64,000 bases of DNA from Diaphorobacter sp. HDW4B (GTDB lineage: Bacteria; Pseudomonadota; Gammaproteobacteria; Burkholderiales; Burkholderiaceae_C): positions 186,001-250,000 of the forward strand of contig NZ_CP049906.1 in NCBI RefSeq assembly GCF_011305535.1, read 5' to 3'. Below, in pieces: positions 5,709 to 63,287 of this stretch. The first letter of the stretch is position 1. Each line of letters begins with the position of its first letter. The notes under the pieces were generated by a model. It worked only from the letters and a program-made list of their open reading frames with translations, did no database searches and was not told the origin of the DNA. A program made the position numbers and the translations under genes.

Positions 5709-5750
5709 TTTTTTCTCCATCGGGCTGTTCGTTGTTCTTCGCGGCGGCGT

Positions 5751-16381: not shown

Positions 16382-16510
16382 CGTAGGGCCTATTGAGAAA
16401 TTGCCTGCCCGTCGGGGCAAACGCAGGCGCTACTTTAGATATTGTTTTGTTATTCTTCCAATGAAAATACAGCCACTTTGGATATCAATTTTGGCATTGA
16501 TGGAAACCCT

Positions 16511-17608: not shown

Positions 17609-18070
17609 TCATGCCCCCGCGCGCAACTCGATCGCCAGCATTTCTCCCGTCGCACACACCACGTCACCCGCATGCAGGCTGAGTGCGATGCGCACCTTGC
17701 GTCCGTCCACGCTGATGGGCTCTCCGCGAACCTGCAACTCCGCGCCCTGGGGTGTCGGGTTCTTGAAATCGACTTTGAGTGACGCTGTAACAAAGCGCGG
17801 TGGATCGGCCTGCTCCTCGATCGACAGGCCACGCGCCTGACAGGCGAAGGCTGCGGCGGAAGCCGTACCGTGGCAGTCCATCAGAGACGCAATCATGCCG
17901 CCGTAGACGTGACCCGGCACGCCCCCGCTGTACTGCATGCCGGGCGTGAATCGTGCCTCGGTAGTGCCATCGCGCAAATAGCTCTTGAGTTGATATCCCG
18001 CCGGATTCCCGTGGCCACACCCGTAGCAGTGTGCGTATTTCGACGGGTAGCCATCCTGAATCGCCTTCAT
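17609..18070 (-). CDS. PaaI-type hotdog-fold thioesterase
   Basis: 153 residues. The N-terminal motif C-Y-G-C-G-x-x-N-P-x-G and the central GHVYGGMIASLMDCHGTA are typical of PaaI/YigI-like acyl-CoA thioesterases: helix-borne Gly-Gly followed by the acidic residue Asp65 in the active-site region. It would release free acid and CoA from acyl-CoA. It is divergent from the CoA-transferase gene at 18263, with the palindromic element 18141-18167 in between, so it may clear dead-end CoA esters of the organosulfur pathway. Upstream CAGGAGGATGGAATG gives a strong ribosome-binding site. The substrate is not deducible. Confidence 0.8.
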   Translation of the reverse strand: MKAIQDGYPSKYAHCYGCGHGNPAGYQLKSYLRDGTTEARFTPGMQYSGGVPGHVYGGMIASLMDCHGTASAAAFACQARGLSIEEQADPPRFVTASLKVDFKNPTPQGAELQVRGEPISVDGRKVRIALSLHAGDVVCATGEMLAIELRAGA

Positions 18071-18262: not shown

Positions 18263-19456
18263 ATGCCAGAACAAGCGAACGAGGGAGCGTTGAACGGAAT
18301 CCGGATACTGGATCTCTCGCGTATCCTCGCAGGGCCCAGTGCAACCCAATTGTTGGGGGACTTGGGTGCCGATGTGATCAAGGTCGAGCGCCCTGATGAA
18401 GGGGACGATACCCGCAAATGGGGTCCCCCCTACATTGCTGACCGTGATGGCAGCCCCACAAACGAGAGCGCCTACTACCTTGCGGCAAACCGAAACAAGC
18501 GCTCCATCGCCATCGACATCGCAAGCGAAGAAGGCAAGGAACTCATTCACCGGCTGCTGGCCAAGGCCGACATTCTGGTGGAGAACTACAAGGCCGGTGG
18601 TCTCTCCAAATACGGTCTTTCCTATGAGCAACTGCGCGAGAAATATCCGCGCCTCATCTACTGCTCGATCACCGGGTTTGGTCATACAGGTCCATACGCC
18701 AGCCGCCCCGGCTACGACTTTCTGATTCAGGGAATGGGCGGGATCATGAGCCTTACCGGCGTGCCCGATGGCGAGCCCATGAAGGTAGGCGTGGGCATCG
18801 CCGATGTGATGACCGGCATGTATGCGACGGTCGGCATGCTGGCAGCTCTGCAGCATCGCGACAAGACAGGTCAGGGGCAGCACATCGACATCTCTCTGCT
18901 GGACACGCAGATCGCCTGGTTGGTCAATGCTGGAACCAACTACCTGGCCGAACGAAAGCTGCCGACCCGGTTGGGCAACGGGCATCCCAACATCGTGCCC
19001 TATCAGGTGTTCCCTAGCGCGGACTCGCCGATGATTCTCGCAGTCGGCAACGACGCACAGTTTCGTCGCTTCTGCCAAGTGGCACAAGCCGAAGCACTCG
19101 CTGACGATCCACGCTACGCAACCAACGTGCAACGCATTGCCCATCGCGAGGCACTTGTGGAGCGGGTTGCCGACCTGCTGAAGAAGCATCCACGCAGCCA
19201 TTGGCTGCAGGAGCTCGAAGCTGCGGGCGTGCCTTGTGGGCCTGTGAACGATCTTGACGACGTCTTCAACGATCCCCACGTCATCGCACGCGGCGCCGAG
19301 TTGCGCATGCCTTGTGATTGGGCGGAGGATGGAGAGATCAGCCTGCTGGCGAATCCGCTGAAGATGTCCGTCACCCCTCCCAGCTATCGACGCCCGCCCC
19401 CGCGCCTGAACGAACATGAACGAAGCGTTCTGAGCGATTGGCTCGGCGCGGCTTGA
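18263..19456 (+). CDS. act: CaiB/BaiF (class III) CoA-transferase, probable 3-sulfinopropionate CoA-transferase
   Basis: 397 residues from ATG 18263, with GGAAGGA 15 bases upstream. It is a family III CoA-transferase. The catalytic Asp is D181 in VGVGIADVMTGM, and the N-terminal LDLSRILAGPSATQ and GADVIKVERP motifs are intact. In Variovorax paradoxus TBEA6 an enzyme of this family (Act) moves CoA from succinyl-CoA to 3-sulfinopropionate, and its gene is linked to the desulfinase. Here the desulfinase homologue starts 43 bp downstream and a thiol dioxygenase follows. That context, not the sequence alone, supports the specific function. It opens a plus-strand gene set reaching 25701. Generic succinyl-CoA:dicarboxylate transferase activity is the alternative. 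Confidence 0.8.
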   Translation: MPEQANEGALNGIRILDLSRILAGPSATQLLGDLGADVIKVERPDEGDDTRKWGPPYIADRDGSPTNESAYYLAANRNKRSIAIDIASEEGKELIHRLLAKADILVENYKAGGLSKYGLSYEQLREKYPRLIYCSITGFGHTGPYASRPGYDFLIQGMGGIMSLTGVPDGEPMKVGVGIADVMTGMYATVGMLAALQHRDKTGQGQHIDISLLDTQIAWLVNAGTNYLAERKLPTRLGNGHPNIVPYQVFPSADSPMILAVGNDAQFRRFCQVAQAEALADDPRYATNVQRIAHREALVERVADLLKKHPRSHWLQELEAAGVPCGPVNDLDDVFNDPHVIARGAELRMPCDWAEDGEISLLANPLKMSVTPPSYRRPPPRLNEHERSVLSDWLGAA

Positions 19457-19499
19457 ACATTACAGAAAACTCCAACCATTCTTCTTCCGGAGACTCCTC

Positions 19500-20696
19500 A
19501 TGTACGAACTTACCAAAGAACAATTCGACCTCCAGGCACGCGCACGAGAGCTTGCGCAGACTGCCTTCGCACCGACCGCCGCCGAGACCGATCGCACCGA
19601 GCAATATCCCTGGGACAACATTGCCAAGCTGCGCGATGCCGGCTTCATGGGCATGACGCTTCCCAAGCGTGCGGGCGGCCAGGGCCGGAGCTATCTGGAC
19701 GCAGTCATCGTCGTGGAGGAAATGGCCAAGTCCTGCGCGACCATGGGACGCATCACGGTGGAAGCCAACATGGGGGCGATCGGCGCGATCGCCACTTACG
19801 GCACTCCGGAGCAATTGAACATGGCGGCCGAGCTGGTGCTCGGTGGCGACAAGCCCGCCATCTGCATCTCCGAGCCCAATGCCGGAAGCGCTGCGAGCGA
19901 GATGACCACACGCGCCGATCGCAAGGGTGACGAATACATTCTCAACGGCGAAAAGTACTGGATCACCGGCGGCGGCGTATCCAATCTGCATCTCATCTTT
20001 GCACGTGTTTTCGATGACGGCGTGGATCAGGGCGTAGGCGCGTTCATCTGCGTGCGTGACCGCACTCCTGCCGACCAGTTGGTGGTGGGACGCCGCCTCT
20101 ACGCCATGGGTGTGCGGGGCATCCCCGAGACCCATCTGGAGTTCCGCAATCTGCGCGTGCACAAGTCCATGCTGGTCGTTCCGCCTGGTGGACTCAAGCG
20201 CGGCTTTGCATCGCTGATGAATGCCTACAATGCGCAGCGCGTTGGTGCCGGCACGGTAGCTCTGGGCATTGCGCAAGGAGCGTTCGAGGAAGGCATGGCA
20301 TATCTGAAGACACGTGAGCAGTTCGGTCGCCCCATCGCCGAATTCCAGGGTCTGCAGTGGATGCTGGCCGATATGTCCACCCAGTTGGAAGCGGCACGCC
20401 TGATGCTGCGTCATGCAGCGGCCAGCGGTGAGCATTTCCCGGACATCGACAAAGCCGCTCGTGCCAAGATCATGGCCGCCGAGACCGCCAACAAGGTCAC
20501 CAACGACGCACTGCAGTTCTACGGCTCTTCAGGCTACGGACGCCACAACCCGATGGAGCGTCATGTGCGCGACGCCCGCATGTTCACCATCGCTGGCGGC
20601 ACCGCGCAGATTCTGCGCACACAGGTGGCATCCAAGCTGCTGAACATGAAGCTGCCGCAGACCCGCGATGGCTACGCTGCGCAGACCAAATCCTGA
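19500..20696 (+). CDS. acd: 3-sulfinopropionyl-CoA desulfinase (acyl-CoA dehydrogenase fold)
   Basis: 398 residues, full-length acyl-CoA dehydrogenase architecture (helical N domain, beta domain near 118-230, helical C domain), RBS GGAGA just before the ATG. It lacks the catalytic base at both usual places: position 246 is Gln (YNAQRVGAG) and position 366 is Gly (IAGGTAQI), where dehydrogenases carry Glu. Position 84 is Arg (TMGR). Arg84, Gln246 and Gly366 are exactly the residues that define AcdDPN7 of Advenella mimigardefordensis, an FAD enzyme that removes sulfite from 3-sulfinopropionyl-CoA and has no dehydrogenase activity. The identical numbering strongly supports orthology. Neighbours supply the CoA-transferase upstream and the thiol dioxygenase 49 bp downstream. 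Confidence 0.92.
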   Translation: MYELTKEQFDLQARARELAQTAFAPTAAETDRTEQYPWDNIAKLRDAGFMGMTLPKRAGGQGRSYLDAVIVVEEMAKSCATMGRITVEANMGAIGAIATYGTPEQLNMAAELVLGGDKPAICISEPNAGSAASEMTTRADRKGDEYILNGEKYWITGGGVSNLHLIFARVFDDGVDQGVGAFICVRDRTPADQLVVGRRLYAMGVRGIPETHLEFRNLRVHKSMLVVPPGGLKRGFASLMNAYNAQRVGAGTVALGIAQGAFEEGMAYLKTREQFGRPIAEFQGLQWMLADMSTQLEAARLMLRHAAASGEHFPDIDKAARAKIMAAETANKVTNDALQFYGSSGYGRHNPMERHVRDARMFTIAGGTAQILRTQVASKLLNMKLPQTRDGYAAQTKS

Positions 20697-20745
20697 CAAG
20701 ACCAGCATCGCGCATTTCATACTCGAACAATACGGAGACCCACCC

Positions 20746-21327
20746 ATGATTGACATGCCAGCCACATTTCAGAAATTCGTCACCGACTTCACCAAGGTGA
20801 TCGACCAGCACCAAGGCGATGAACCCGCCATTCTGGAGAAAGGCGGGGCGGTGCTCAAGCAACTGATCGAGCAGGACGACTGGCTTCCTGAACGTTATGC
20901 CAAGCCCGACCCTCAGTACTACCAACAGTACCTGCTGCACGCAGACCCGCAGGACCGCTTCTCCGTAGTGAGCTTCGTCTGGGGACCGGGTCAGAAAACG
21001 CCGGTGCACAACCATACCGTCTGGGCACTGATAGGCATGATGCGTGGCTGCGAAGTCGGCGAATTGTTCGAGTATGCGGAAGACGGCAAGAGCATGCGTT
21101 CGCTGGGCTCGGAGCAGCTCAATCCGGGCGATGTGGACTGCGTGTCGCCCACCATCGGTGACATCCACCGCGTCTCCAATCTCTACGATGATCGTGTGTC
21201 CATCAGCATCCACGTCTACGGCGGAAACATCGGCCGCATCTCGCGACATGTGTTCGTCGTGGAAACGGGCGAACGCAAACCCTTCATTTCCGGCTACTCC
21301 AACGAAGCGGAATTGAAAGCCGCCTGA
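20746..21327 (+). CDS. mdo: 3-mercaptopropionate dioxygenase-type cupin (thiol dioxygenase)
   Basis: 193 residues from ATG 20746 (GGAGA ten bases upstream). It belongs to the cysteine-dioxygenase superfamily. The three-His iron site is His88 and His90 (PVHNH) plus His141 (DIHRV), and Ser154-His156-Tyr158 (SIHVY) matches the second-sphere Ser-His-Tyr triad of bacterial thiol dioxygenases. Gly101 occupies the region where mammalian CDO has the Cys of the Cys-Tyr crosslink, which is the bacterial 3-MPA-type arrangement. It would oxidise 3-mercaptopropionate with O2 to 3-sulfinopropionate, the substrate for the two upstream enzymes. Alternatives are cysteine or mercaptosuccinate as thiol; the adjacent desulfinase favours 3-mercaptopropionate. 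Confidence 0.82.
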   Translation: MIDMPATFQKFVTDFTKVIDQHQGDEPAILEKGGAVLKQLIEQDDWLPERYAKPDPQYYQQYLLHADPQDRFSVVSFVWGPGQKTPVHNHTVWALIGMMRGCEVGELFEYAEDGKSMRSLGSEQLNPGDVDCVSPTIGDIHRVSNLYDDRVSISIHVYGGNIGRISRHVFVVETGERKPFISGYSNEAELKAA

Positions 21328-21491
21328 GGCAAGCAGCCTCCCGGCAATCGACCGCGTCCTGCTGGCTCTTCGCCGTTGCCTGCCATGTGATCGTGTACCA
21401 TCCAAGCGCTTCCATGAAGGTATGGAAGCGCTTGGAGACAGACGCGAAGCACGCAGTGCTGCATCGGTGAACGCAAAGGGAGACAGACGCT

Positions 21492-22382
21492 GTGAATCTG
21501 GGTGGCAAGCACGACTATCCGACCCTCAAACAACTCGAGCTGCTGCTCGCTCTGGTGCAGTCGGATGGCATCTCCAGCGCAGGTGCCAAGCTTGGCCTGT
21601 CACCATCGGCCACCAGCCACGCCCTGCGTGCCTTGGAGTCGGCGCTTGGTGCCCAACTCATCGACCGCAGTGCACCCGGAGCACCGCTGACCTACGCAGG
21701 TGAACGCATTCTTCCTTTGGCCAAGGAAGTCTTCGCGTCGATGCAACTGATGAAGTCGATCGCTCGCTCGGATGCAGACCTCAAGACCGGGCAGCTCTAC
21801 ATAGGCTCGTTCGGTGCCAGTGGCACGCTCAGAGCGCTTCCTCCGATTCTCAAGTCCTTTCGTCAGAAGCATCCCGGCGTGGATGTTCACATCATCGAAA
21901 AGCCCGAGGAGCAGACCAGTCTCGACCTGATGGAACACCGCATCGAACTGGCGGTCGTCCCACTGCCCAAACTCGAACTCGAGACCCAGACACTCGCCAT
22001 GGATGAGCTCGTCGCCGTGCTGCCTGACGGGCACCCGCTTGCGCTGCAGGACGTGGTCCAGCTGAGCGAACTGATGGAGTACCCGTTCCTGCTCACCCGC
22101 GCAGGATCCAAGCCACTGATCTACCGACTGCTGCTCAAGCACGATCTCAAGCCGCGCATCGCGCACGAGTTGCACCAGATCACCTCGATACTGCAGTATG
22201 TCGCGGACGGTCACGGCGTATCGATCCTGGCCCGCCTCGCCTTGCCCGATGCCATTCCCGGCATCGTCTACAAGCCGCTCACACCCACCACGCAGCGCTA
22301 TATCGCGCTGGCCTGCCAGAACTCCAATCGGCTCTCTCCAGTGGCCCGTGCGTTCTGGAACGAAGCCGCCCGAGGCAACTGA
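21492..22382 (+). CDS. LysR-family regulator within the organosulfur cluster
   Basis: 296 residues with a GTG start at 21492 (MNLGGKHDYPTL). The helix-turn-helix is at about residues 10-65 (LKQLELLLALVQSDGISSAG, LGLSPSATSHALRALESALG), followed by a LysR ligand-binding domain. It sits 164 bp after the thiol dioxygenase and ahead of the Bug gene, on the same strand. LysR genes also accompany act/acd loci in Variovorax and Advenella. It probably controls this catabolic set in response to 3-mercaptopropionate, 3-sulfinopropionate or the disulfide; the ligand is inferred from context. Confidence 0.87.
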   Translation: MNLGGKHDYPTLKQLELLLALVQSDGISSAGAKLGLSPSATSHALRALESALGAQLIDRSAPGAPLTYAGERILPLAKEVFASMQLMKSIARSDADLKTGQLYIGSFGASGTLRALPPILKSFRQKHPGVDVHIIEKPEEQTSLDLMEHRIELAVVPLPKLELETQTLAMDELVAVLPDGHPLALQDVVQLSELMEYPFLLTRAGSKPLIYRLLLKHDLKPRIAHELHQITSILQYVADGHGVSILARLALPDAIPGIVYKPLTPTTQRYIALACQNSNRLSPVARAFWNEAARGN

Positions 22383-22634
22383 CTGCCAAGCGCTTCTCGC
22401 ATCGTTCTGTGGGACATTCGAGTCCTTCAGGTTCACGAAGACCGAGGCTCGACTCCGCCACATTCATCGCGAGCATCGACTCTTTAAAAATATCCAGTTT
22501 CAGCCTCGAGAAAAGCTAGCCAACGATCGCACTGCATTCAATACATTTTGATCTCGGAACGACTTCGCGCACCTCACAGGAAAAGAACGCGGAGCACCGG
22601 ATTCAACATGCATTCAGAATCAAAGGAGACATTG

Positions 22635-23612
22635 GTGAAGCGCACTCTTCTGTCAACAGCCGTCATCGCGGCAAGCATTCTCTCCATCGGCACACAAGTC
22701 GCCGCACAGGACTATCCCAAGAAGGGCAAGGCGATCAACCTGATCGTGCCATTCGCACCAGGCGGCGCTTCGGACATCCTTGCGCGTCTGATCGGTCAAA
22801 AGCTGACCGAGCAATGGGAGACACCCGTCATCGTGCAGAACAAGCCCGGCGGTGACATGGTGATTGCACTGCAATCGGTCGCACGCTCGGAAAAGGACGG
22901 CTACACCATCGGCCTCACCACCAGCAGCTTCGCGCTCAACAAGGTGGTCAAGAAGGACTTCCCGCTTGATCCCATCACGGACTTCTCGTTCATCGGAACG
23001 ATCGGCCAGTCCCCATATTTGCTGGCTGTCGGCGCAGACTCGAAGATCACCAACTTCAAGGAACTGGAAGCCGCGTCGCGCGTGAAAAACAGCAACTTCA
23101 GCTATGCCTCCTGCTGCTTCGGTACCTACTTCTCGGCAGAGATGATCAAGAATGCGACCAAGCTCGACGGCGTGCATGTGCCTTACAAGGGCAGCTCGCC
23201 CGCACTCAATGCGATCCTGTCCAAGGAAGTGGAATACATCATCGATACGACGACAGCGACCAAGCCCTTTGTCACTTCCGGAAAGCTGCGTCCGCTCATG
23301 GTGACGGGCCGCAAGCGCTCTGCCTCATTCCCCAATGTGCCGAACATGACGGAAGCCGGCGTGCCTGGCGACTTCGAAGTAGGCGTCTGGTATGGATTCG
23401 CTTTCCCTGCGGGCACCCCGGCGGACATCGTCAAGAAGACCAACCTGGCCTTGAACAAGATTCTTGCCATGCCTGATGTGAAGGCCAAGATCGAGAGCTT
23501 CGACATTGAAGTCATGCCCTCCACGCCCGAGCAGATGACAGCGCGTGTGACCAGCGATCTGCAGTCCTACATCTCGGCACTGAAAACCGCCAAGCTGGAT
23601 TTCGGCAGCTGA
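22635..23612 (+). CDS. Bug/TctC-family solute-binding protein of the organosulfur cluster
   Basis: 325 residues from GTG 22635. AAAGGAGAC sits five bases upstream, so this start beats ATG 22608. The Sec signal peptide is residues 1-25 (KRTLL, hydrophobic run, VAAQ). Bug motifs are present: VPFAPGGASDILAR near 38-51, VQNKPGGDM and VPYKGSSPALNAI. Unusually, the ligand-loop motif that normally reads Y-x-S-x-G-x-G is YASCCFGTY here, with adjacent Cys160 and Cys161. Placed between genes for thiol and disulfide metabolism, it likely captures 3,3'-dithiodipropionate, 3-mercaptopropionate or 3-sulfinopropionate in the periplasm. A Bug gene is likewise linked to 3-sulfinopropionate catabolism in V. 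paradoxus. Confidence 0.9.
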   Translation: MKRTLLSTAVIAASILSIGTQVAAQDYPKKGKAINLIVPFAPGGASDILARLIGQKLTEQWETPVIVQNKPGGDMVIALQSVARSEKDGYTIGLTTSSFALNKVVKKDFPLDPITDFSFIGTIGQSPYLLAVGADSKITNFKELEAASRVKNSNFSYASCCFGTYFSAEMIKNATKLDGVHVPYKGSSPALNAILSKEVEYIIDTTTATKPFVTSGKLRPLMVTGRKRSASFPNVPNMTEAGVPGDFEVGVWYGFAFPAGTPADIVKKTNLALNKILAMPDVKAKIESFDIEVMPSTPEQMTARVTSDLQSYISALKTAKLDFGS

Positions 23613-23623
23613 GGATGACGATA

Positions 23624-23646
23624 ACGGGGTGCCTCGTGCACCCCGT
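23624..23646. terminator. Perfect 9-bp hairpin between bug and GST genes
   Basis: ACGGGGTGC and GCACCCCGT pair perfectly around a five-base loop, twelve bases after the bug stop codon. There is no T-tract downstream, so it may stabilise the 3' end or attenuate read-through rather than stop transcription fully. A lower level of the downstream reductase genes could result. Confidence 0.5.
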
Positions 23647-23683
23647 CAGCGTCACTTGCCTTCTCTCTCTTCACCGATTTCAG

Positions 23684-24343
23684 ATGCTGGATTTATATAC
23701 CTGGGGCACTCCCAACGGGCACAAGGTGCACATCATGTTGGAGGAATGCGATGCGACCTACCGCATCCATCCGGCCGACATCAACGACAAGGAGACCTTC
23801 TCCGCCATGATGGCGCCGCTCGGTGTCAATCGCAAGATTCCGCTGCTGATCGACAGTGATCCGCAGGATGGCAAACCGGTCACGATCTTCGAATCCGGTG
23901 CCATCCTCATTCATCTGGCCGAAAAGTTCCGCCGCTTTCTGTCGCAGGACATCGCCGAGCGCTCCTCCGCCATGCAGTGGCTGATGTTCCAGATGAGCGC
24001 TGTCGGCCCCATGATGGGACAGCTCAGTCACTTCCGAGGACGCTCCCGTTCGGCACCTTCTGCGGAGCAATCGGATGGGTATGCGCTCGAACGTTTCGCA
24101 GCCGAAGTGCAGCGCATCCATTCGGTGATGGAGCAACATCTGCAGAACAGCGCCTACTTCGCAGGCACGCAATACTCCATCGCGGACATGGCGATCTTTC
24201 CCTGGCTACGATTGTCGGAGAAGATGGGCATCGATGTCGTCGCATATCCTCGTCTCAACGAGTGGCGCGAGCGCATCGCATCGCGACCCGCCGTGCAACG
24301 CGCACTGGCCCTTCCCGAACTCACTCAGACGGCCAAAACATGA
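23684..24343 (+). CDS. YfcG/YghU-like glutathione S-transferase (disulfide-bond oxidoreductase class)
   Basis: 219 residues from ATG 23684. The N-terminal thioredoxin-like domain carries GTPNGHKVHI, matching the T-x-N glutathione-binding signature of Nu-class GSTs such as E. coli YfcG, which reduce disulfides using two bound glutathiones. FESGAILIHLAEK near 64-80 is the usual Glu-Ser glutathione anchor, and the C-terminal domain ends with a YSIADMAIFPW helix. The stop overlaps the start of a glutathione-reductase-like gene (ATGA), so the two are translationally coupled. In this cluster it plausibly splits 3,3'-dithiodipropionate or a mixed glutathione disulfide into free 3-mercaptopropionate. 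Confidence 0.83.
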   Translation: MLDLYTWGTPNGHKVHIMLEECDATYRIHPADINDKETFSAMMAPLGVNRKIPLLIDSDPQDGKPVTIFESGAILIHLAEKFRRFLSQDIAERSSAMQWLMFQMSAVGPMMGQLSHFRGRSRSAPSAEQSDGYALERFAAEVQRIHSVMEQHLQNSAYFAGTQYSIADMAIFPWLRLSEKMGIDVVAYPRLNEWRERIASRPAVQRALALPELTQTAKT

Positions 24344-25701
24344 CAGCAGCCAACACATTCGATCTCATCGTCATCGGCGCAGGCTCCGGCGGCATCGCGG
24401 CATCCCGGCGCGCGGCCAGTCACGGAGCCAAAGTGCTGCTGATCGAGGGCACCCGCGTGGGCGGCACCTGCGTGCTGCGCGGCTGCATTCCCAAGAAGCT
24501 CATGATGTATGCGTCGGAGATGGGCAGCGCTTTCAGCGAGGCCAGCGCCTTCGGCTGGAGTGAAGTTGCCACGCAATTCGACGTTGCCCGCTGGACGCGA
24601 GCCAAGGACAACGAACTCAACCGGCTCGAAGGCGTGTATCGCCAGATGCTCGCGAACTCCGGTGTACAGACACTGCTCGCTCATGCACGCATCACCGGAG
24701 AACGTACGGTCGAGGCGAACGGAGAGACCTATCATGCCGATCGGATTCTGATCGCCACCGGCGGTGCACCTTCCACCGATGGAATTGCAGGGCTTGAGCA
24801 GGCATGGACTTCCGACGACATCCTGCAATTGAATGCGCTGCCCAAGTCGCTTCTGGTGATCGGTGCGGGATACATTGCCGCCGAGTTCGCATCCATTCTC
24901 GCGAGACTGGGCGTGCAAGTGTCGATGGCTTATCGCGCCGATCTGCCACTGCGCGGCTTCGATGAGGATCTGCGTGCGCAGGCCGCACAGGCGCTCGAAT
25001 CACTGGGTGTGAAGCTGCATGCGGGCATGCGCGCCCAGGCCTTGTCGAAGGACGCCAGCGGATTCACACTTCGTCTCGAAGACGGCTCGGTGCTGCAAGC
25101 CGAAGCAGTGCTCAACGCCACAGGTCGAAAGCCCAACATCTGGGGTCTGGGTCTCGATAGCGTGGGTATCCGGACCGATGCGTCAGGCGCCATTCCTGTG
25201 GATGCCGACAGCCGCACCGTCGTGCCCGGCATCTGGGCCATTGGAGACGTCACCAACCGAGTGAACCTCACACCAGTGGCCATTGCCGAGGGCCGGGCCT
25301 TTGCGGACACGGAATTCGGAGGTAGGCACATTCAGGCCAATCACACCAACGTGGCCAGCGCCGTCTTCTGTTCCCCGCCGATCGCGACCATCGGGCTGAC
25401 TGAAGCGCAAGCCATCGAGCGCGGACCGACCGACGTCTATGTGAGTCAGTTCCGCCCCATGAAGAAGGCCTTCGTCGGCAGTCAGGAGCGCACCTACATG
25501 AAGCTCATCGTGGATCGCACGACCGATCGCGTGACCGGCATTCACATGCTCGGAGCCGATGCTCCCGAGATCATTCAGGGATTGGCCATCGCGATCAGCG
25601 CGGGAGCCACCAAACGTGATTTCGACAACACCATGGCGATGCACCCGACATCGGCAGAAGAGTTCGTGCTGATGCGCGAGCCCACACGCCGCCACGGTTG
25701 A
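24340..25701 (+). CDS. Glutathione-reductase-like FAD/NAD(P)H disulfide reductase
   Basis: 453 residues from ATG 24340, overlapping the GST stop by four bases. It is a class I pyridine nucleotide-disulfide oxidoreductase. FAD motif GAGSGG is at 13-18, redox pair Cys44-x4-Cys49 (GGTCVLRGCIPKK), NAD(P) motif VIGAGYIAAEFA near 170, second FAD motif (WAIGDVTNRVNLTP) near 305, and C-terminal His-Pro...Glu-Glu (HPTSAEEF). The partner GST suggests glutathione regeneration or direct cleavage of an organic disulfide. In Advenella the disulfide 3,3'-dithiodipropionate is cleaved by a related flavoprotein (LpdA). It completes the plus-strand gene set that starts at 18263. Confidence 0.85.
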   Translation: MTAANTFDLIVIGAGSGGIAASRRAASHGAKVLLIEGTRVGGTCVLRGCIPKKLMMYASEMGSAFSEASAFGWSEVATQFDVARWTRAKDNELNRLEGVYRQMLANSGVQTLLAHARITGERTVEANGETYHADRILIATGGAPSTDGIAGLEQAWTSDDILQLNALPKSLLVIGAGYIAAEFASILARLGVQVSMAYRADLPLRGFDEDLRAQAAQALESLGVKLHAGMRAQALSKDASGFTLRLEDGSVLQAEAVLNATGRKPNIWGLGLDSVGIRTDASGAIPVDADSRTVVPGIWAIGDVTNRVNLTPVAIAEGRAFADTEFGGRHIQANHTNVASAVFCSPPIATIGLTEAQAIERGPTDVYVSQFRPMKKAFVGSQERTYMKLIVDRTTDRVTGIHMLGADAPEIIQGLAIAISAGATKRDFDNTMAMHPTSAEEFVLMREPTRRHG

Positions 25702-25759: not shown

Positions 25760-26635
25760 TCAGTTGGTCCAGTCCACCGTGCTGAACGACGACAGCAGCA
25801 GCGCTGTGAGAGCGTCGTGCTCGTGGGATGCTCGCGTGATCAACGATACCGGTCGCTCGAAATTAGGCAGGCGCACCACATGCAGATTGGGACTGGCGTG
25901 CCAGGCCGCGCCACGGATCAGTGGCACGATGGAAATGCCCAAGCCCTGACTGACCAGCGCCGCAATCGCGTCCAGCGAATTGAGCTCCATCGATGGCTTG
26001 GTCATCACGCCGCGCTTCATCAAGAACTCGTCAATGAGCTGTCCCGCCCAGGTGCTGCGTTCAAACGCGATGTACGGCGTGGACGACTTGAAGGCCTGAA
26101 CCAGATCCTGGTAGGGGACCTCGGCTGGAGTGAGCAGCGCGAAAGGTTCACTGTAGAGATAGTGGACGCTGAGGTTGGTGGGAAAACGCTGCGGCGGCTC
26201 GGTCACGATGGCCATGTCCAGCGTGCCACGGTTTACCTGCGTCACCAGCTCGCCCGAAATGCCGGCCATGATCTTCACCTCCAACCCCGGGTTCGTCTGC
26301 GTCATCTCCTTGAGCAACTGTGGAAGCACACCGCCCAGCGCGCTGTTGATCACACCCAGCGACAGAAAGCCCCCGATGGGCCCGCCCCCCTTGATCGCCT
26401 TCATCTCCTCGTAGATCGAGACCATCTTCTCGGCCAGCGGCACCATTTGCCGCCCTGCCGAGGTGAACTCCAGCGAGCGCTTGGTGCGCACGAACAAAGC
26501 AATGCCCAGCTCGTCCTCCATGTTCTTGAGCTGAACGCTCACGGCCGCCTGAGAAAGATGCACTTTCTCGGCGGCGGCGACAATGGTTCCAAAACGATGC
26601 AGCGCCAGAAAAGAGCGCAGCGATCTGATCAGCAT
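25760..26635 (-). CDS. LysR-family regulator behind the CoA-transferase operon
   Basis: 291 residues. The helix-turn-helix is residues 1-60 (SLRSFLALHRFGTIVAAAEK, LSQAAVSVQLKNMEDELG), followed by a typical effector domain (GPIGGFLSLGV, TLDMAIVTEPP). GGAG lies seven bases before ATG 26635. It begins 69 bp after the CaiB gene stop on the same strand, so it could be the last gene of that operon. It converges with the disulfide reductase gene. It is a candidate to bind the CTCAATTGAG elements, but so are the other LysR proteins of the window. Confidence 0.88.
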   Translation of the reverse strand: MLIRSLRSFLALHRFGTIVAAAEKVHLSQAAVSVQLKNMEDELGIALFVRTKRSLEFTSAGRQMVPLAEKMVSIYEEMKAIKGGGPIGGFLSLGVINSALGGVLPQLLKEMTQTNPGLEVKIMAGISGELVTQVNRGTLDMAIVTEPPQRFPTNLSVHYLYSEPFALLTPAEVPYQDLVQAFKSSTPYIAFERSTWAGQLIDEFLMKRGVMTKPSMELNSLDAIAALVSQGLGISIVPLIRGAAWHASPNLHVVRLPNFERPVSLITRASHEHDALTALLLSSFSTVDWTN

Positions 26636-26704
26636 GACAAGACTCCGGATAGGGGTTCGTCCCCGAACGCGGCACGGCCCGGGGAAGTCACGCCGTGCAG
26701 GTAA

Positions 26705-27895
26705 TCACACGGCAGGCTTGCGCGGCAGCACGCTGGCGTAGGCTGCAGGATCGATACCCTGCTCCTTGAGCACCTCCTCGGTATGCTGCGCGAACGCTGG
26801 CGGACGGATGCGGTAGGTGGCTGGCGTGCGCGAAAGCTTCACCGGAGCGCCCGTACCACGGTAGTCGTCGATGTCGACGATCATGCCGCGATGGTGCGTG
26901 TGCGGATCGGCCACCACCTGGTCAATGGTTCGCACCGGTCCGCAGGGAACACCCGCGGACACCAGTTCCTGAGACACCTGCTGGCCATCGCGCTGAGAGA
27001 GCAGCGACACCAGCTCATCACGCAGCGCATCACGGTGCATGTTGCGGGAAGCGTTGGTCAGGAAGCGTTCATCCGTGCCCAGCTCGGGCTTTCCGAGTAC
27101 CTTGCAAAGCGTCACGAACTGGCGATTGTTGCCCACGGCAAGGAACAATGGAACGGTGCTGGTCTCGAACGCGTCATAGGGACAGATGTTCGGGTGACGG
27201 TTGCCCGAGCGCTGCGGCACCTTGGCGTTGAGATAGTAATTGGGCAAATGCGGATGCAGCATGGACACACCGGAGTCGTAGAGCGTCGCCTCGACGAATT
27301 GCCCTTCTCCGCTGCGGTTGCGCTCTTGCAGTGCCAGCAGAATGCCGATCACGCCATTCATGCCGGTGACCATGTCGATGATCGGAACGCCCATGCGCAG
27401 CGGCTCGCCCTGCGGTTCACCATTCACGCTCATCAGGCCCGTCATCGCCTGCACCGCAGCATCGTAGCCAGGTTGCCCGCCATAAGGACCATCGGCACCG
27501 AAACCCGAGATGCGGCAATGCACCAGACGCGGAAAGCGCTTGCGCAGCTCATCACCGCCGAGTCCCCACTTTTCGAGCGTGCCGATCTTGAAGTTCTCGA
27601 TGAACACGTCCGCATCTTCCAGCAAACGCAGCAGCAGTTCCTGCCCGAGCGGCTGCGTCACGTCGATGGGCACATCGCGCTTGTTGCGGTTCACGCCGAT
27701 GAAGTAGCTCGCGGCATCGCCCACGAATGGAGGGCCCCAGGCACGGGTCTCGTCACCCATCGGGGGCTCCACCTTGATCACATCGGCGCCATGGTCGCCC
27801 AGAATCTGGCCGCAGAAGGGCCCGCCCAGCACGCGGCTGGCGTCGATCACGCGGATGCCCGCCAACGCGCCGGCTTTCGTCTTTTCATTCTGCAT
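26705..27895 (-). CDS. CaiB/BaiF (class III) CoA-transferase
   Basis: 396 residues, family III fold: IDASRVLGGPFCGQ and GADVIKVEPP at the N-terminus, catalytic Asp174 in VPIIDMVTGM. It transfers CoA between an acyl-CoA donor and a carboxylic acid. Its start overlaps the end of the preceding two-subunit CoA-transferase gene by eleven bases, so translation is coupled. Having a class III enzyme and a class I type A/B pair in one operon suggests successive CoA activation of two acids, or activation of an acid followed by CoA return. The substrate is not evident. Confidence 0.88.
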   Translation of the reverse strand: MQNEKTKAGALAGIRVIDASRVLGGPFCGQILGDHGADVIKVEPPMGDETRAWGPPFVGDAASYFIGVNRNKRDVPIDVTQPLGQELLLRLLEDADVFIENFKIGTLEKWGLGGDELRKRFPRLVHCRISGFGADGPYGGQPGYDAAVQAMTGLMSVNGEPQGEPLRMGVPIIDMVTGMNGVIGILLALQERNRSGEGQFVEATLYDSGVSMLHPHLPNYYLNAKVPQRSGNRHPNICPYDAFETSTVPLFLAVGNNRQFVTLCKVLGKPELGTDERFLTNASRNMHRDALRDELVSLLSQRDGQQVSQELVSAGVPCGPVRTIDQVVADPHTHHRGMIVDIDDYRGTGAPVKLSRTPATYRIRPPAFAQHTEEVLKEQGIDPAAYASVLPRKPAV

Positions 27896-28643
27896 GTGCA
27901 GCTATCTCCTTGGTCAGTTGTTGTGCGAAGTCCGGATAGGTTTCGCGAAGCTCATCGAGCACACGGCCACGCAGCAGTTCCAGCGTCGCTGCGTCAGGCG
28001 ATGGAGTCACGCTCAGTTGCGGGTCCACATCGAACGCAAAGCCCGTTGCGGATTGGATCTCTTCAAGCGTATGTCCCGGATGCATATGCACCAGTCGAAA
28101 ACGCGCCTTGGACGGATCGAACATGAACAACGCCATCCCGGTCAGCAGGGCATACGGACCCCCTTTGCGATACACGCCGGGCTCGCTGGTACCCGGTGCG
28201 CTGATGAAATCCACCTTGTCGACAAACACACGCGGTGAATGTTCCTCGCGAAACAGGATCACCTTGGGAATGGTGAAATACAGATAGGCGGAACCGAACG
28301 ATCCGGGCCAGCGGACCTTGGTGTGCGGATAGTCGCCTACGCCGACCAGGTTGATGTTGCCCTGTCCATCAATCTGGCCACCGCCCAGAAAGAACGCATC
28401 GATGCGGCCCTGCCCAGCGCAGTCGAACAGTTCGGCCGAGCCATTGGTGAACAGGTTGTGTTTGACCGAGCCCAGAATGGACAGCCGTACCGCCGGTTCA
28501 TTGACTGCTTCCTTCTGCGCACGCAACAACATGGCCGCCGCAGCGGGAATCGGGGACGAGGCACCGACCGCCACATGGCGCGCACCGTCGAGCAGCGAGG
28601 CGATCGTGACGATCAGACGTTCACGCAAAGTCAGTTCGTTCAT
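27885..28643 (-). CDS. Class I CoA-transferase, beta subunit (glutaconate/IpdB-like)
   Basis: 252 residues from ATG 28643 (MNELTLRERL), which overlaps the alpha-subunit stop as ATGA. The pattern ELFDCAGQGRIDAFFLGGGQIDGQGNINLV near 73-100 (shown here in parts) is typical of the GctB/IpdB branch, with a conserved Gly-Gly-Gln-x-Asp loop at the active-site edge. It is usually an alpha2beta2 partner. The longer upstream frame is not conserved and lies inside the alpha gene. The operon order is alpha, beta, CaiB, LysR. IpdAB homologues can also act as hydrolases on ring-derived CoA thioesters, so the true reaction is open. Confidence 0.82.
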   Translation of the reverse strand: MNELTLRERLIVTIASLLDGARHVAVGASSPIPAAAAMLLRAQKEAVNEPAVRLSILGSVKHNLFTNGSAELFDCAGQGRIDAFFLGGGQIDGQGNINLVGVGDYPHTKVRWPGSFGSAYLYFTIPKVILFREEHSPRVFVDKVDFISAPGTSEPGVYRKGGPYALLTGMALFMFDPSKARFRLVHMHPGHTLEEIQSATGFAFDVDPQLSVTPSPDAATLELLRGRVLDELRETYPDFAQQLTKEIAAHAE

Positions 28644-29452
28644 GCATACACCTCTGCAATCCATTGCTGAAAGCCTTCTTCCGTTTTGGCCATCTGGGCG
28701 TAGCGCTGCAACTGCGCGGTATCCGGCGCGTACTCTCCCCAAAGACCGTACGGCCATGCACCTTTCTCCGCCACGGCAATGCCATCGACGTAGATGGCGG
28801 GGAGCACACCGGCTGCCGTCGTCTCGTCGTCCAGCAGACGATGCTCCACGATGCGCTCCACGGTCACGAAATTCCTGCGACTGGCATAGGCCATGGCCGC
28901 CAGCTCACGTCTGCGGCCGATCCAGACATTGCCTTCCCGATCGGCCATCGGTGCATGGAAGACCGACACGTCGGGATGCAACGCCGGAATCGCGACCACA
29001 GGATCGGGCTCCACAGAAAACAGGTTCTGCATGACACGCCAATCCTGGCGATGCAGCAGCACATCGGTGCCGATCAGGCCGCGCAAGGTGGTGAAGGGAG
29101 AACCCTTCTGCGCCGCCATCAGGCCTGCGTGGATTGCGGGACAGGTGCTGTCCTTCATTTGAATCGACCTGTTGGCAATCGCGCGCATGAAGCACGGTGC
29201 TCCGCCCGCCTCCCCCAGACTGACCGCGCTGGTCTCCAGACTGCGTACCAGCCCCGCGCCGATCAGAATGTCGAAGGACAGCCCGGCCGTCGGCACGCCC
29301 ACCAGATCCAGATTGCGCGGCGCACGCTGCAGCAGCGCGGGAACGATGGCCATGGGCACGCCCGCGTAATCGACGGGCATGGCAAGCCGGCAGCCATCGC
29401 TGATCTGCGCAGCGATGTCGTCCACGCTCATCGGTGCCATTGTCTGTGGCAT
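28640..29452 (-). CDS. Class I CoA-transferase, alpha subunit (glutaconate/IpdA-like)
   Basis: 270 residues. The family pattern is visible: the N-terminal glycine-poor sheet with NLDLVGVPTAGLSFDILIGA near 48-67, then EAGGAPCFMRA and HAPMADREGNVWIG, where D-x-x-G-N is the usual signature of subunit A. GAGACAACATGCC gives a ribosome-binding site just before ATG 29452. It is the first gene of a four-gene minus-strand operon, divergent from a Bug gene; the 310-bp gap holds the 27-bp shared element. Likely acts on a dicarboxylic or ring-cleavage acid delivered by the Bug system, but this is inference. Confidence 0.82.
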   Translation of the reverse strand: MPQTMAPMSVDDIAAQISDGCRLAMPVDYAGVPMAIVPALLQRAPRNLDLVGVPTAGLSFDILIGAGLVRSLETSAVSLGEAGGAPCFMRAIANRSIQMKDSTCPAIHAGLMAAQKGSPFTTLRGLIGTDVLLHRQDWRVMQNLFSVEPDPVVAIPALHPDVSVFHAPMADREGNVWIGRRRELAAMAYASRRNFVTVERIVEHRLLDDETTAAGVLPAIYVDGIAVAEKGAWPYGLWGEYAPDTAQLQRYAQMAKTEEGFQQWIAEVYA

Positions 29453-59913: not shown

Positions 59914-61314
59914 TCAACGCGCAACGACACCGAACAAGTCCGCATCCGGCTTGTTCCAGTCCGGCCCCAAAAGCACTTTGGCGTAGTGATTGACGCAATG
60001 AACGCCAAGCGCTCCGTGCATCATGTCGCCCTGCGCGGCGCGGCGCTTGAGCACTGGTGTCATCAGGCCCTTCTCCGTCAATTCATGGGCGACTGCCTTG
60101 AACAGTTGCTCCTTCTGAAAGCTGTCGAGCTTTTGAATTTCGTCCGTCACGAAACGTCGTCGGTCGGCGATCCATTCATCGAAGGCCTTGTTCTGCACTT
60201 GCGATGGTGACAAGGCTTGCGGTTCGGCTTTTGCGCTTTGCAGAACCCGATCAACGTGGGGAATGGCGTTTGTCTCGGTGCTCGTGCGAGGCTTGGCGAT
60301 CTCATCATCGTCCCCGGGAGAACGGAGCAGTGAGCGAAGGTAGGCAAAGCTGTTCTCGACCTTCTTGAGTCCATCGTTTTCGAGTCGCTGCTTCAGAACC
60401 ACCAACTTCTCGTTGACCGCTTTTTCGCCGAACTCCTTGATCAGGCCTTCGATCTTCATTTCGCTGATGCCAAGCGCCTGTGCCGACAGAACCAGATCCG
60501 CATCCACGGGACCCAGCTGTTCCTGTTCCACGAGTTTGACGGCAACCCGCTTCTTGCGCACAGCGAATTGAACTTCGAACACGCTGCGACCTTGCTTGTG
60601 TTCGATCATCTCGATCTGAAGATCCGTCTCCGCATTGATTTCTTCGACGGCTGCCTTGACCTTCTCGTTCTTGAACTTGCGCCACTCCCGGCGCTCCGAG
60701 CCCGCGGGGGCAGGACTCAGTGCGTCGGCCCACCAGGCCACCGGCTTTCTGCTGGTCAACCCGCCGGGGTTGTCTCTATAGCGAGCGCAGATCTCGTACA
60801 GCGCAACGGATGTGTAGGTGCTCAGCGTTGCCAGCACCCCCAGATCGATCCGCGCCCAGCGCATGGGATCTTTCAACGCTGTGATCAATGTGGGAGGAAA
60901 CGTCCACAGGACCCAGTTTTCGCCGTTGCGAACCTCGATCGCAGCCTCTGCGAGCATGGAGAAGTCTTTCCACTTCACCCCATCTCCGGGAGCGGTCGTT
61001 TCCCAATCGACAGCCAAGCCGCGCATTTCACGCAGATAACGTTTCGCCACGGTGCGTGTTTCGCTGCTCGATCCGGAGACTTTCAGGATAGATTGCAGGG
61101 GCGCGGAAAACATGAAGTCCGCCGTTGGCATTCCTTCCATGGACACAAGGCGATCCTGAGAGAAATGCAATAGCGCGTTGTAGATCTTGCGCCCGGTGAG
61201 CGTGACCCGCTTGGTGCGTGGAATCATGACGATCATCTCGTGCGGCTTGCGCAACTCGGCACCCTCCCCCGACATGGAGGGAAAGAGCTGTAGAGATGAT
61301 TCGGTCGTATCCAT
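59914..61314 (-). CDS. rep: Plasmid replication initiator protein (Rep_3/RepB type)
   Basis: 466 residues starting at ATG 61314. N-terminal winged-helix initiator region: KRVTLTGRKIYNALLHFSQD near 34-53, ARIDLGVLATLSTYTSVALYEICARYRD (in parts) near 150-180, and WWADAL, typical of iteron-binding Rep proteins; the C-terminal 180 residues are charged and Lys/Glu-rich. It is transcribed away from oriV. A perfect inverted repeat of the iteron half-site sits 16 bp before the start, which indicates autorepression by Rep dimers. It identifies this DNA as an iteron-controlled secondary replicon. Confidence 0.85.
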   Translation of the reverse strand: MDTTESSLQLFPSMSGEGAELRKPHEMIVMIPRTKRVTLTGRKIYNALLHFSQDRLVSMEGMPTADFMFSAPLQSILKVSGSSSETRTVAKRYLREMRGLAVDWETTAPGDGVKWKDFSMLAEAAIEVRNGENWVLWTFPPTLITALKDPMRWARIDLGVLATLSTYTSVALYEICARYRDNPGGLTSRKPVAWWADALSPAPAGSERREWRKFKNEKVKAAVEEINAETDLQIEMIEHKQGRSVFEVQFAVRKKRVAVKLVEQEQLGPVDADLVLSAQALGISEMKIEGLIKEFGEKAVNEKLVVLKQRLENDGLKKVENSFAYLRSLLRSPGDDDEIAKPRTSTETNAIPHVDRVLQSAKAEPQALSPSQVQNKAFDEWIADRRRFVTDEIQKLDSFQKEQLFKAVAHELTEKGLMTPVLKRRAAQGDMMHGALGVHCVNHYAKVLLGPDWNKPDADLFGVVAR

Positions 61315-62105: not shown

Positions 62106-63287
62106 ATGAATCTCACACAAGCCATCAGGCGACAGAACCTGGAAGACATCGAGGTACAGGCTACTCGTGTGGCAGGCATGATGGCGGCAATCCGCTCTGC
62201 GATGCTGCCACCCACTGCCGCCAAGTCTGCTCCTAGTATGAGCATCTCGCAACTGGCACAGCTGTGCCAAGTAGATAAGACGAAGATCACCTATCGAGTG
62301 AAGCGCGGCGATCTGCCAGCCGGGACCATGGTTGGCAACAAGAGAGTCTGGTCAATGGAGGAAACTCAGGAATGGGTCCGCGCCTTCAGAGCAGATCATC
62401 TGCGTCCCAATGATGCGGTCGGTACCACCATCACCGTGGCCAACTTCAAGGGCGGCGTGGCCAAAACGACGACGGCAGTGGCCCTTTCTCAAGGCTTGTC
62501 CCTGCGTGGACACAAGGTGCTGCTGCTGGATCTGGACCCTCAAGGTTCGGCAACCACTCTGTTCGGGGTTCTTCCCGATGCGGAAGTCGAAGTCGAAAAC
62601 ACAGCCATGCCGCTGTTCTCCGGAGAGCATGCCGACCTGAGCTACGCGATTCGCAAGACTTACTGGCCCTCCGTCGATCTGATCTGTGCGGCCCCTCTTC
62701 TCTTTGGTGCTGAATTTGTCCTCCCCGCACGGCAATCATCCGACCCAGGCTTCGAGTTCTGGCGGGTTCTTGACCGTGGTCTTGACCAAGCGAGAGCGGA
62801 ATACGATGTGATCGTGATCGACACCCCCCCTGCCCTGTCTTACGTGACCATCAATGCGTTGATGGCGGCCGACGGTGTGATCATGCCTGTTCCTCCCTCG
62901 GCTCTGGACTTTGCATCCAGCGCTCAATTCTGGGATCTGTTCTCCGACTTGTGCAACCAGCTCATTCGTGCTCGCGGACAGGACAAGACTTTTGAGTTCA
63001 TCGACGTGCTGCTGTCTCGTGTCGAATCGTCCGACGCGGCCAGTTCGGTCGTTCGTCAATGGGTGATTGAGGCTTATGGCGACAAGGTTCTGCCGATCGA
63101 GATTCCCAAGACAGCAGTCACATCTTCTGCGAGCGCCGAGTTCGGAACCGTCTATGACGTTCCCAAGGGCTCGATGAATGCGAAGACGTTCAGCCGTGCT
63201 CGCGATGCATACGATCGGATGGTGGAACTTGTCGAACAGCAAGTCGAAGCTGTCTGGGCCTCTCAGCTTGAAAATGGAGATGAATGA
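62106..63287 (+). CDS. parA: ParA-type partition ATPase (with N-terminal HTH)
   Basis: 393 residues, ribosome-binding site GGAAGG. Residues about 45-95 form a MerR-like HTH (SMSISQLAQLCQVDKTKITY, then VGNKRVW), so it is a large, P1-type ParA (type Ia) that can repress its own operon. Deviant Walker A FKGGVAKTTT at 114-123, Walker A' LLDLDPQGSATT near 142-153 and Walker B VIVIDTPPAL near 240. It moves ParB-parS complexes along the nucleoid. parB follows with a one-base overlap. Origin side upstream, 61962-62105, contains its promoter. Confidence 0.93.
   Translation: MNLTQAIRRQNLEDIEVQATRVAGMMAAIRSAMLPPTAAKSAPSMSISQLAQLCQVDKTKITYRVKRGDLPAGTMVGNKRVWSMEETQEWVRAFRADHLRPNDAVGTTITVANFKGGVAKTTTAVALSQGLSLRGHKVLLLDLDPQGSATTLFGVLPDAEVEVENTAMPLFSGEHADLSYAIRKTYWPSVDLICAAPLLFGAEFVLPARQSSDPGFEFWRVLDRGLDQARAEYDVIVIDTPPALSYVTINALMAADGVIMPVPPSALDFASSAQFWDLFSDLCNQLIRARGQDKTFEFIDVLLSRVESSDAASSVVRQWVIEAYGDKVLPIEIPKTAVTSSASAEFGTVYDVPKGSMNAKTFSRARDAYDRMVELVEQQVEAVWASQLENGDE

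Follow-up and report, generated by a model that had tools for sequence, protein, structure and literature searches.

The 64,000-nucleotide window analysed here (that is, the whole stretch of DNA from Diaphorobacter sp. HDW4B) contains a gene cluster that we read, with a probability of roughly three in four, as a catabolic module for 3-mercaptopropionate (3MP). In this reading, which is based on predicted proteins, a front end of glutathione transferase (GST) and glutathione reductase (GR), together with a divergent block encoding the coenzyme A (CoA)-transferase-like proteins CaiB2, GctA and GctB, would serve the same function as a core of three enzymes, Act, Acd and Mdo. The breakdown of 3MP by the core is very likely, judging from sequence, and the disulfide of 3MP, 3,3'-dithiodipropionate (DTDP), is perhaps a substrate too. 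The core is known from other bacteria; what looks new is its joining to the glutathione enzymes and to a divergent GctA-GctB-CaiB2-LysR2 block.

Gene content of the cluster

The source genome consists of two contigs (C1 and C2; 6.2 Mb), and the window represents bases 186001-250000 of C2. Gene identities were assigned through searches of NCBIfam, Pfam and the Protein Data Bank (PDB). An earlier note on this DNA had placed seven genes on one strand at 18263-25701, in the order Act, Acd, Mdo, LysR, Bug, GST and GR, and this is indeed the arrangement found. The conserved neighbourhood extends past that interval into four genes on the opposite strand, LysR2-CaiB2-GctB-GctA (25760-29452), and probably includes the thioesterase at 17609-18070.

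17609..18070, minus strand: PaaI/4HBT hotdog thioesterase (Pfam PF03061)
18263..19456, plus strand: Act, CaiB/class III CoA-transferase (PF02515, 440 bits)
19500..20696, plus strand: Acd, predicted 3-sulfinopropionyl-CoA desulfinase of the acyl-CoA dehydrogenase fold (NF042439, PDB 5af7)
20668..21327, plus strand: Mdo, predicted 3-mercaptopropionate dioxygenase of the cysteine-dioxygenase fold (PDB 4qma, 6xb9, 4wvz)
21492..22382, plus strand: LysR1 transcriptional regulator (profile match)
22608..23612, plus strand: Bug/TctC periplasmic binding protein, orphan (PF03401)
23684..24343, plus strand: YfcG-like glutathione transferase/glutathione-dependent disulfide oxidoreductase, GST (best PDB match 3gx0, YfcG)
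24340..25701, plus strand: glutathione reductase, GR (PRK06116)
25760..26635, minus strand: LysR2 regulator (profile match)
26705..27895, minus strand: CaiB2, second class III CoA-transferase (PF02515, Asp174)
27885..28643, minus strand: GctB, CoA-transferase-fold beta subunit (PF01144)
28640..29452, minus strand: GctA, CoA-transferase-fold alpha subunit (PF01144)

The true start of Mdo is likely the ATG at 20746, which agrees better with the lengths of its homologues. A promoter and terminator scan gave no excess over shuffled sequence (1 versus 3.3; 8 versus 8.3).

The core enzymes

Acd is very likely a 3-sulfinopropionyl-CoA desulfinase, an activity predicted from its sequence. It scores 659.3 bits against the NCBIfam 3-sulfinopropanoyl-CoA desulfinase model NF042439 (cut-off 600, E = 1.4e-198), a cut-off exceeded in 7 of the 299 genomes of the family, and its best solved relative is 5af7, with 79.9% identity over 394 positions in a gap-free alignment. 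The PDB lists 5af7 as an acyl-CoA dehydrogenase; we take it to be AcdDPN7, and we assume, as the earlier note did, that Arg84, Gln246 and Gly366 are the residues that define AcdDPN7. The alignment being ungapped, all three carry the same numbers in the window protein and in 5af7, as had been claimed. The triad occurs in 98 of 98 sequences at least 60% identical to Acd, a count that includes duplicates (86 are distinct) and that leaves L012 (58%) and L013 (56%) below its threshold. It is absent from all 22 relatives that scored lower in the family search; 20 of them carry a Glu at position 246 or 366, and the other two have Asp and Tyr there. A Glu at either position was what the earlier note had named as speaking for a true dehydrogenase, and Acd has none.

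A chance or mis-assigned Acd is rejected because of the desulfinase-model score, the match to 5af7 and the triad residues. One might still regard the protein as an ordinary acyl-CoA dehydrogenase, in keeping with its fold and superfamily, but the Glu positions of its relatives are replaced (Q246, G366) and the cut-off of a curated desulfinase model is exceeded, which makes this extremely improbable.

For Mdo, alignment with the 3-mercaptopropionate dioxygenase 4wvz bears out the claimed pattern of three His (H114, H116, H167) and Ser-His-Tyr (S180-H182-Y184), and R193 is the equivalent of R168 in 4wvz; 4qma and 6xb9 are further PDB matches. In such dioxygenases the three His are metal ligands, acting alongside the Ser-His-Tyr triad and the Arg. 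A second thiol dioxygenase, 53% identical to Mdo, is encoded on C1 (L191:8000-12035), where it adjoins a CaiB-type CoA-transferase and a PRK07586 thiamine pyrophosphate enzyme; the PRK07586 family is also represented in the window at 35725-37266.

Act has an Asp181 at a conserved position, of the type that is catalytic in class III CoA-transferases, and its gene adjoins acd. It is predicted to activate 3-sulfinopropionate.

Taken together, Mdo would convert 3MP and O2 to 3-sulfinopropionate, Act would transfer CoA to this product from succinyl-CoA or a similar donor, and Acd would release sulfite and leave propionyl-CoA. Ahead of these steps, GST and GR would most likely use NADPH, by way of glutathione, to reduce DTDP, or mixed disulfides of 3MP, a reactive thiol, back to free 3MP, with Bug binding the substrate in the periplasm and LysR1 and LysR2 acting as putative regulators. 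The divergent CaiB2-GctAB would probably feed in a further acid as its CoA ester, through a lyase- or hydrolase-type reaction.

Comparison with known systems

The earlier note held that clustering of all the steps on a replicon with its own partition system was undescribed, and that the Advenella steps were spread over the genome. Clustering and plasmid location are not new, because clusters have been published for Advenella and Variovorax and copies occur on the plasmids pSYMBR3459 and pBB1; we therefore drop clustering as a novelty. DTDP and 3,3'-thiodipropionate (TDP) were chosen as study substrates of the desulfinase pathway owing to polythioester plastics (PMC5373536, PMC6370202, PMC8102459), and the pathway is backed by proteomic, deletion or enzyme work in two organisms with the core cluster (PMC5373536, PMC6370202).

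In Advenella mimigardefordensis DPN7T (MIM_c31360-31430), the published legend of Fig 6A sets side by side LysR (MIM_c31370), a family III acyl-CoA transferase (31380), Acd (31390) and Mdo (31400), and the row continues with AhpD and two TctC (PMC5373536). The chemistry downstream of 3MP is identical to that proposed here. The Advenella region differs in adding Xre, methylcitrate genes and AhpD and in having LpdA and SucCD encoded elsewhere, whereas GST, GR and GctAB-CaiB2 are absent from that legend (PMC5373536). In Variovorax paradoxus TBEA6 (VPARA_05440-05600), acdA, act and mdo are likewise clustered (mdo-act-acdA), but enoyl-CoA hydratases and a crotonase are present for thioether cleavage, and GST, GR and GctAB are unnamed in the published description as far as it was available (PMC6370202).

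Two plasmids provide the precedents for replicon location. On pSYMBR3459, the symbiosis plasmid of Paraburkholderia phenoliruptrix BR3459a (Acd 86.5% identical), a CoA-transferase adjoins acdA, and an mdo-type dioxygenase, LysR and thioesterase lie within 10 kb; in place of GST, GR and GctAB, this copy pairs a PatB C-S lyase with a transporter resembling amino-acid permeases. On pBB1 (81.6%), LysR- and Act-type matches adjoin Acd. No description of the GST/GR/GctAB form of the acd cluster was found in the open-access papers searched.

Survey of acd loci

We compared 89 acd loci, comprising 5 plasmid matches (taken from 1977 plasmid records with any match), 80 retained of at least 574 candidates, and 4 further loci; L143, L144, L146 and L149 were removed as apparent duplicates of L044, L070, L051 and L077, whose contigs have identical lengths. 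Neighbourhoods were screened by tblastn, with the proteins of the window as queries and identity thresholds of our own choosing. Flanks of at least 8.5 kb on both sides were available for 47 of the 89 loci, and absences elsewhere are partly due to short flanks.

Act is the most frequent companion of acd (33/89 at 55% identity or more), followed by relatives of LysR1 (20/89, at least 45%), Mdo relatives (16/89) and PaaI thioesterase homologues (13/89, at least 50%). GctA and GctB occur together near acd in 11 of the 89 loci, which span two proteobacterial classes and differ in the order and strand of these genes; among the loci with long flanks, GctA is present in 8 of 47. CaiB2 is found near acd in nine loci, LysR2 relatives (at least 60%) in eight and Bug1 in five. 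GST and GR are present in six each, with one or both in seven and both in five, and all seven of these loci carry GctA (Fisher p 5e-8, kinship ignored).

The block is downstream and divergent in Diaphorobacter caeni (L044) and Lampropedia (L070). Comamonas composti (L053) and Bordetella trematum (L052) have it after mdo in the same direction, whereas in Burkholderia OK233 (L056) and Trinickia (L057) it lies upstream of GST-GR-Mdo-Acd. In an alphaproteobacterial metagenome-assembled genome (L074) and in Bradyrhizobium (L107), GctA and GctB are downstream of acd, with CaiB2, GST and GR below thresholds.

The glutathione enzymes, Bug and the question of disulfide cleavage

The earlier note had the set covering uptake, disulfide cleavage, oxidation, CoA activation and desulfination. 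The last three stand, by sequence, with Mdo, Act and Acd, whereas uptake and disulfide cleavage are plausible steps. The Bug protein is called an orphan because no TctA or TctB was seen on reading through the neighbouring open reading frames (ORFs), and a role in uptake is plausible only; in the literature, TDP uptake has been based on TctC (PMC8102459). By eye, about eight Bug/TctC-like proteins lie between 13596 and 58020 of the window, the one at 22608-23612 being the one tested against Pfam.

The best PDB match of GST is YfcG (3gx0), a protein with disulfide-reductase activity, and its score against PRK13972 (183.9 bits) is under the cut-off of 332. GR exceeds the cut-off of PRK06116 (548.5 bits, cut-off 480) and falls under that of TIGR01424 (568.3 versus 606.05); it carries the CxxxxC motif as CVLRGC at 44-49 and the His-Glu motif as HPTSAEE at 435, where the catalytic residues of such reductases lie. 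We consider the chances that GST and GR cleave the disulfide to be about even.

The chief competitor is that the core is a 3MP pathway in which GST and GR keep glutathione reduced as the cell copes with a reactive thiol, and a lipoamide-dehydrogenase-type enzyme encoded on C1 cleaves any DTDP. Two lipoamide dehydrogenase genes on C1 are over the cut-off, and GR is the sole protein over the GR cut-off among 17 matches in the genome. We take the LpdA of Advenella to be of the dihydrolipoamide-dehydrogenase type. This LpdA is reported to be the Advenella DTDP reductase (PMC5373536). At the thresholds used, moreover, both GST and GR are missing from 82 of the 89 acd loci, many of which have short flanks. 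On the other side, GST adjoins GR, one or both recur in seven acd loci, including those of Comamonas, Lampropedia, Bordetella, Burkholderia and Trinickia, and in two module-bearing genomes (G147, G188) a second GR elsewhere argues that the copy in the module is a dedicated one. We regard this account as possible, if clearly the less probable one. Isoprene-type glutathione pathways were set aside, since to our knowledge acd and mdo have no role in them.

Several of these observations weigh against a complete and dedicated module, and should be kept in mind when the three-in-four estimate is read. The rarity of GST and GR beside acd is one. GR may be a general copy, being the genome's only one over the cut-off, and GR is over its cut-off in 151 of the 299 family genomes versus 7 of 299 for the desulfinase; the C1 lipoamide dehydrogenases could be the DTDP reducers. 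Given the Mdo-like gene on C1, C2 may not provide the sole 3MP route. Act matches no NCBIfam CoA-transferase model at its cut-off, and three acd loci (L056, L057, L145) have CaiB2 where Act (at least 55% identity) was not found in the available DNA. For the route onward from propionyl-CoA, no PrpB in the genome is over the cut-off (best 283.5 versus 354.4). There is no gene for sulfite handling among the cluster's genes, to which that search was confined.

The GctA-GctB-CaiB2 block

GctA and GctB match Gct, AibAB and IpdAB, with which they share the CoA-transferase fold. The structure model of GctB (mean predicted local distance difference test score, pLDDT, 73.9) has AibB chains as its top Foldseek matches, followed by Gct and IpdB; that of GctA is poor (mean pLDDT 51.4). 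The catalytic Glu of the Gct beta subunit is Glu54 (PMC5380842), and the AibA/AibB decarboxylase (5mzw) and IpdAB hydrolase (6co6) are reported without the transferase Glu.

Across 16 aligned GctB sequences, residues 36-70 include no invariant Glu or Cys, and an invariant Glu71 lies beyond that stretch. All 16 carry Ile or Val at residue 56 (Ile56 in the window); hhalign pairs this residue with the catalytic Cys56 of AibB, while MAFFT (in three modes) and HMMER place a gap there. GctA possesses Glu73, Glu81, Asp101, Cys104 and His166 in 16/16 sequences, and Cys104 aligns with the IpdA Glu of 6co6 that is replaced by Ala in 6coj.

Three known activities can be held against these residues. The beta-subunit Glu of a glutaconate-type CoA-transferase was not found, the equivalence being drawn through AibB as the Gct Glu falls outside the aligned stretch. 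The beta-subunit Cys56 of an AibA/AibB decarboxylase is not present either, with no Cys in residues 1-74 of the window GctB and, in the hhalign alignment, Ile56 opposite it. In place of the alpha-subunit Glu of the IpdAB hydrolase stands the invariant Cys104. A plain CoA-transferase is thus unsupported, since an invariant Glu is missing where one would be expected, with the proviso that the AibB alignment is uncertain. Overall, GctAB is more like enzymes of the AibAB/IpdAB type than like true CoA-transferases. A lyase or hydrolase reaction seems more likely than CoA transfer, and the GctAB front end points to an uncharacterised enzyme of the CoA-transferase fold.

One speculative option, which we consider a long shot, is that a CoA-dependent C-S lyase made up of CaiB2 and GctAB yields 3MP from thioether carboxylates such as TDP. 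CaiB2 would load the thioether carboxylate onto CoA, GctAB would remove the alpha proton, with Cys104 and acidic residues replacing the transferase glutamate, and 3MP would be expelled as the leaving group and pass to Mdo-Act-Acd. If true, it would give the CoA-transferase fold a new activity and offer another route besides the one through hydratases that has been put forward for Variovorax.

Another proposal gives the role of 3-sulfinopropionate CoA-transferase in this lineage to CaiB2 in place of Act, or to both redundantly. The three loci mentioned above, with CaiB2 and no detected Act, are what would be expected. However, CaiB2 is 45% identical to Act versus 64-66% to the CaiB of cassettes without acd alongside, and Act-type genes are found in 33 acd loci versus nine for CaiB2; we think the proposal unlikely.

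The cassette outside the desulfinase context

On alphaproteobacterial plasmids, of Rhodobacterales, GctA-GctB-CaiB stand together in all five records opened (L192-L196), out of 222. The same three proteins occur in the same order, at 61-72% identity and with the checked GctA residues shared, and the CaiB of these cassettes is 64-66% identical to CaiB2 and 39-43% to Act; in contrast to the window, no acd or mdo is annotated alongside. On plasmid pTHAF37_b, acd lies about 46 kb from the cassette. GctA-GctB-CaiB is a conserved cassette, found beside the sulfinate pathway here and without that pathway elsewhere.

In four of the five records, the cassette precedes genes for a 2-hydroxyacid dehydrogenase, an aldolase, an FGGY kinase, an 'acetolactate synthase' and a molybdoenzyme; the 'acetolactate synthase' is PRK07586 in L192, the only one tested.

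Within the order, we opened 15 regions from 52 matching genomes, four of them shorter than intended. No desulfinase was near GctAB homologues in 13 regions at 47-59% identity or in 2 at 38-39%; region L190 had one acyl-CoA dehydrogenase match, at 32%. The neighbours varied and pointed to no clear function of GctAB.

These regions, and the lack of acd beside the five alphaproteobacterial cassettes (the distant copy on pTHAF37_b notwithstanding), are what one would see if the block were unrelated in function and kept alongside by synteny alone. Against this, GctA recurs in 11 acd loci in varied orders and strands across two proteobacterial classes. Moreover, GctA at 75% identity or more is present in 5 of the 299 family genomes, all of them among the 7 that bear the desulfinase, an overlap with a chance of about 1e-9 if genomes were independent, although three of the five share one genus. 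We judge mere synteny to be improbable, on a par with CaiB2 replacing Act, and retain the block as part of the 3MP module.

An alternative front end

Seven acd loci (L009, L046, L047, L049, L050, L054 and L059) carry a PatB-type C-S lyase and a permease. In L009 (4774-10206), PatB scores 412.8 against TIGR04350 (cut-off 340), and the serine/threonine-transporter-like permease scores 356.6 against TIGR00814, under the cut-off of 525.8; in the other six loci, both were assigned by similarity to L009. None of the seven has any GctA, GST or GR, and the GctAB and PatB front ends co-occur in 0/89 loci.

L009 is a plasmid from a strain whose record gives Mimosa flocculosa as its source, and some of the other six strains presumably came from Mimosa nodules. 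Such a beta-lyase would convert S-(2-carboxyethyl)cysteine to 3MP, pyruvate and ammonia. This amino acid makes up as much as 3% of the dry weight in Calliandra and is present in Acacia; the accessible text of the source does not contain the word Mimosa, and mimosoid legumes are named in its references (PMC9414067). Gene content suggests that legume S-(2-carboxyethyl)cysteine is a natural 3MP source for the PatB-type loci; a search of open-access papers for this combination returned none.

One core (mdo-act-acd) is thus combined with at least two front ends, namely GctAB (usually with CaiB2, GST and GR) or PatB and a permease. Both lead to testable predictions in ordinary soil and root-nodule bacteria.

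The replicon and other features of the window

The earlier note placed the cluster on a replicon with its own partition system. In agreement with this, genes for a ParA-like ATPase and for a protein with a Rep3_C domain lie in the window, no search having been aimed at ParB.

59914..61314, minus strand: replication initiator of the replicon (Rep3_C, PF21205)
62106..63287, plus strand: ParA-type partition ATPase (AAA_31/CbiA)

C2 comprises 761,384 bases, and a whole-genome tRNA search placed 60 of 60 matches on C1 and none on C2. Among the matches listed, the nearest named relative is Diaphorobacter caeni, whose Acd is 98% identical to that of the window, so the host is probably of the Comamonadaceae type.

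Two adjacent, very large ORFs at 756-5720 (1654 aa) and 5751-10058 (1435 aa) have no Pfam match at 1e-3. The ORF at 46390-48282 fuses an aspartyl/asparaginyl hydroxylase domain with a sulfotransferase domain. The IlvD/sugar-acid dehydratase at 14645-16384 (PRK06131, 953.8 bits over 539), with nearby aldehyde dehydrogenase and dihydrodipicolinate synthase (DHDPS)-family genes, apparently belongs to a separate cluster of the sugar-acid type.

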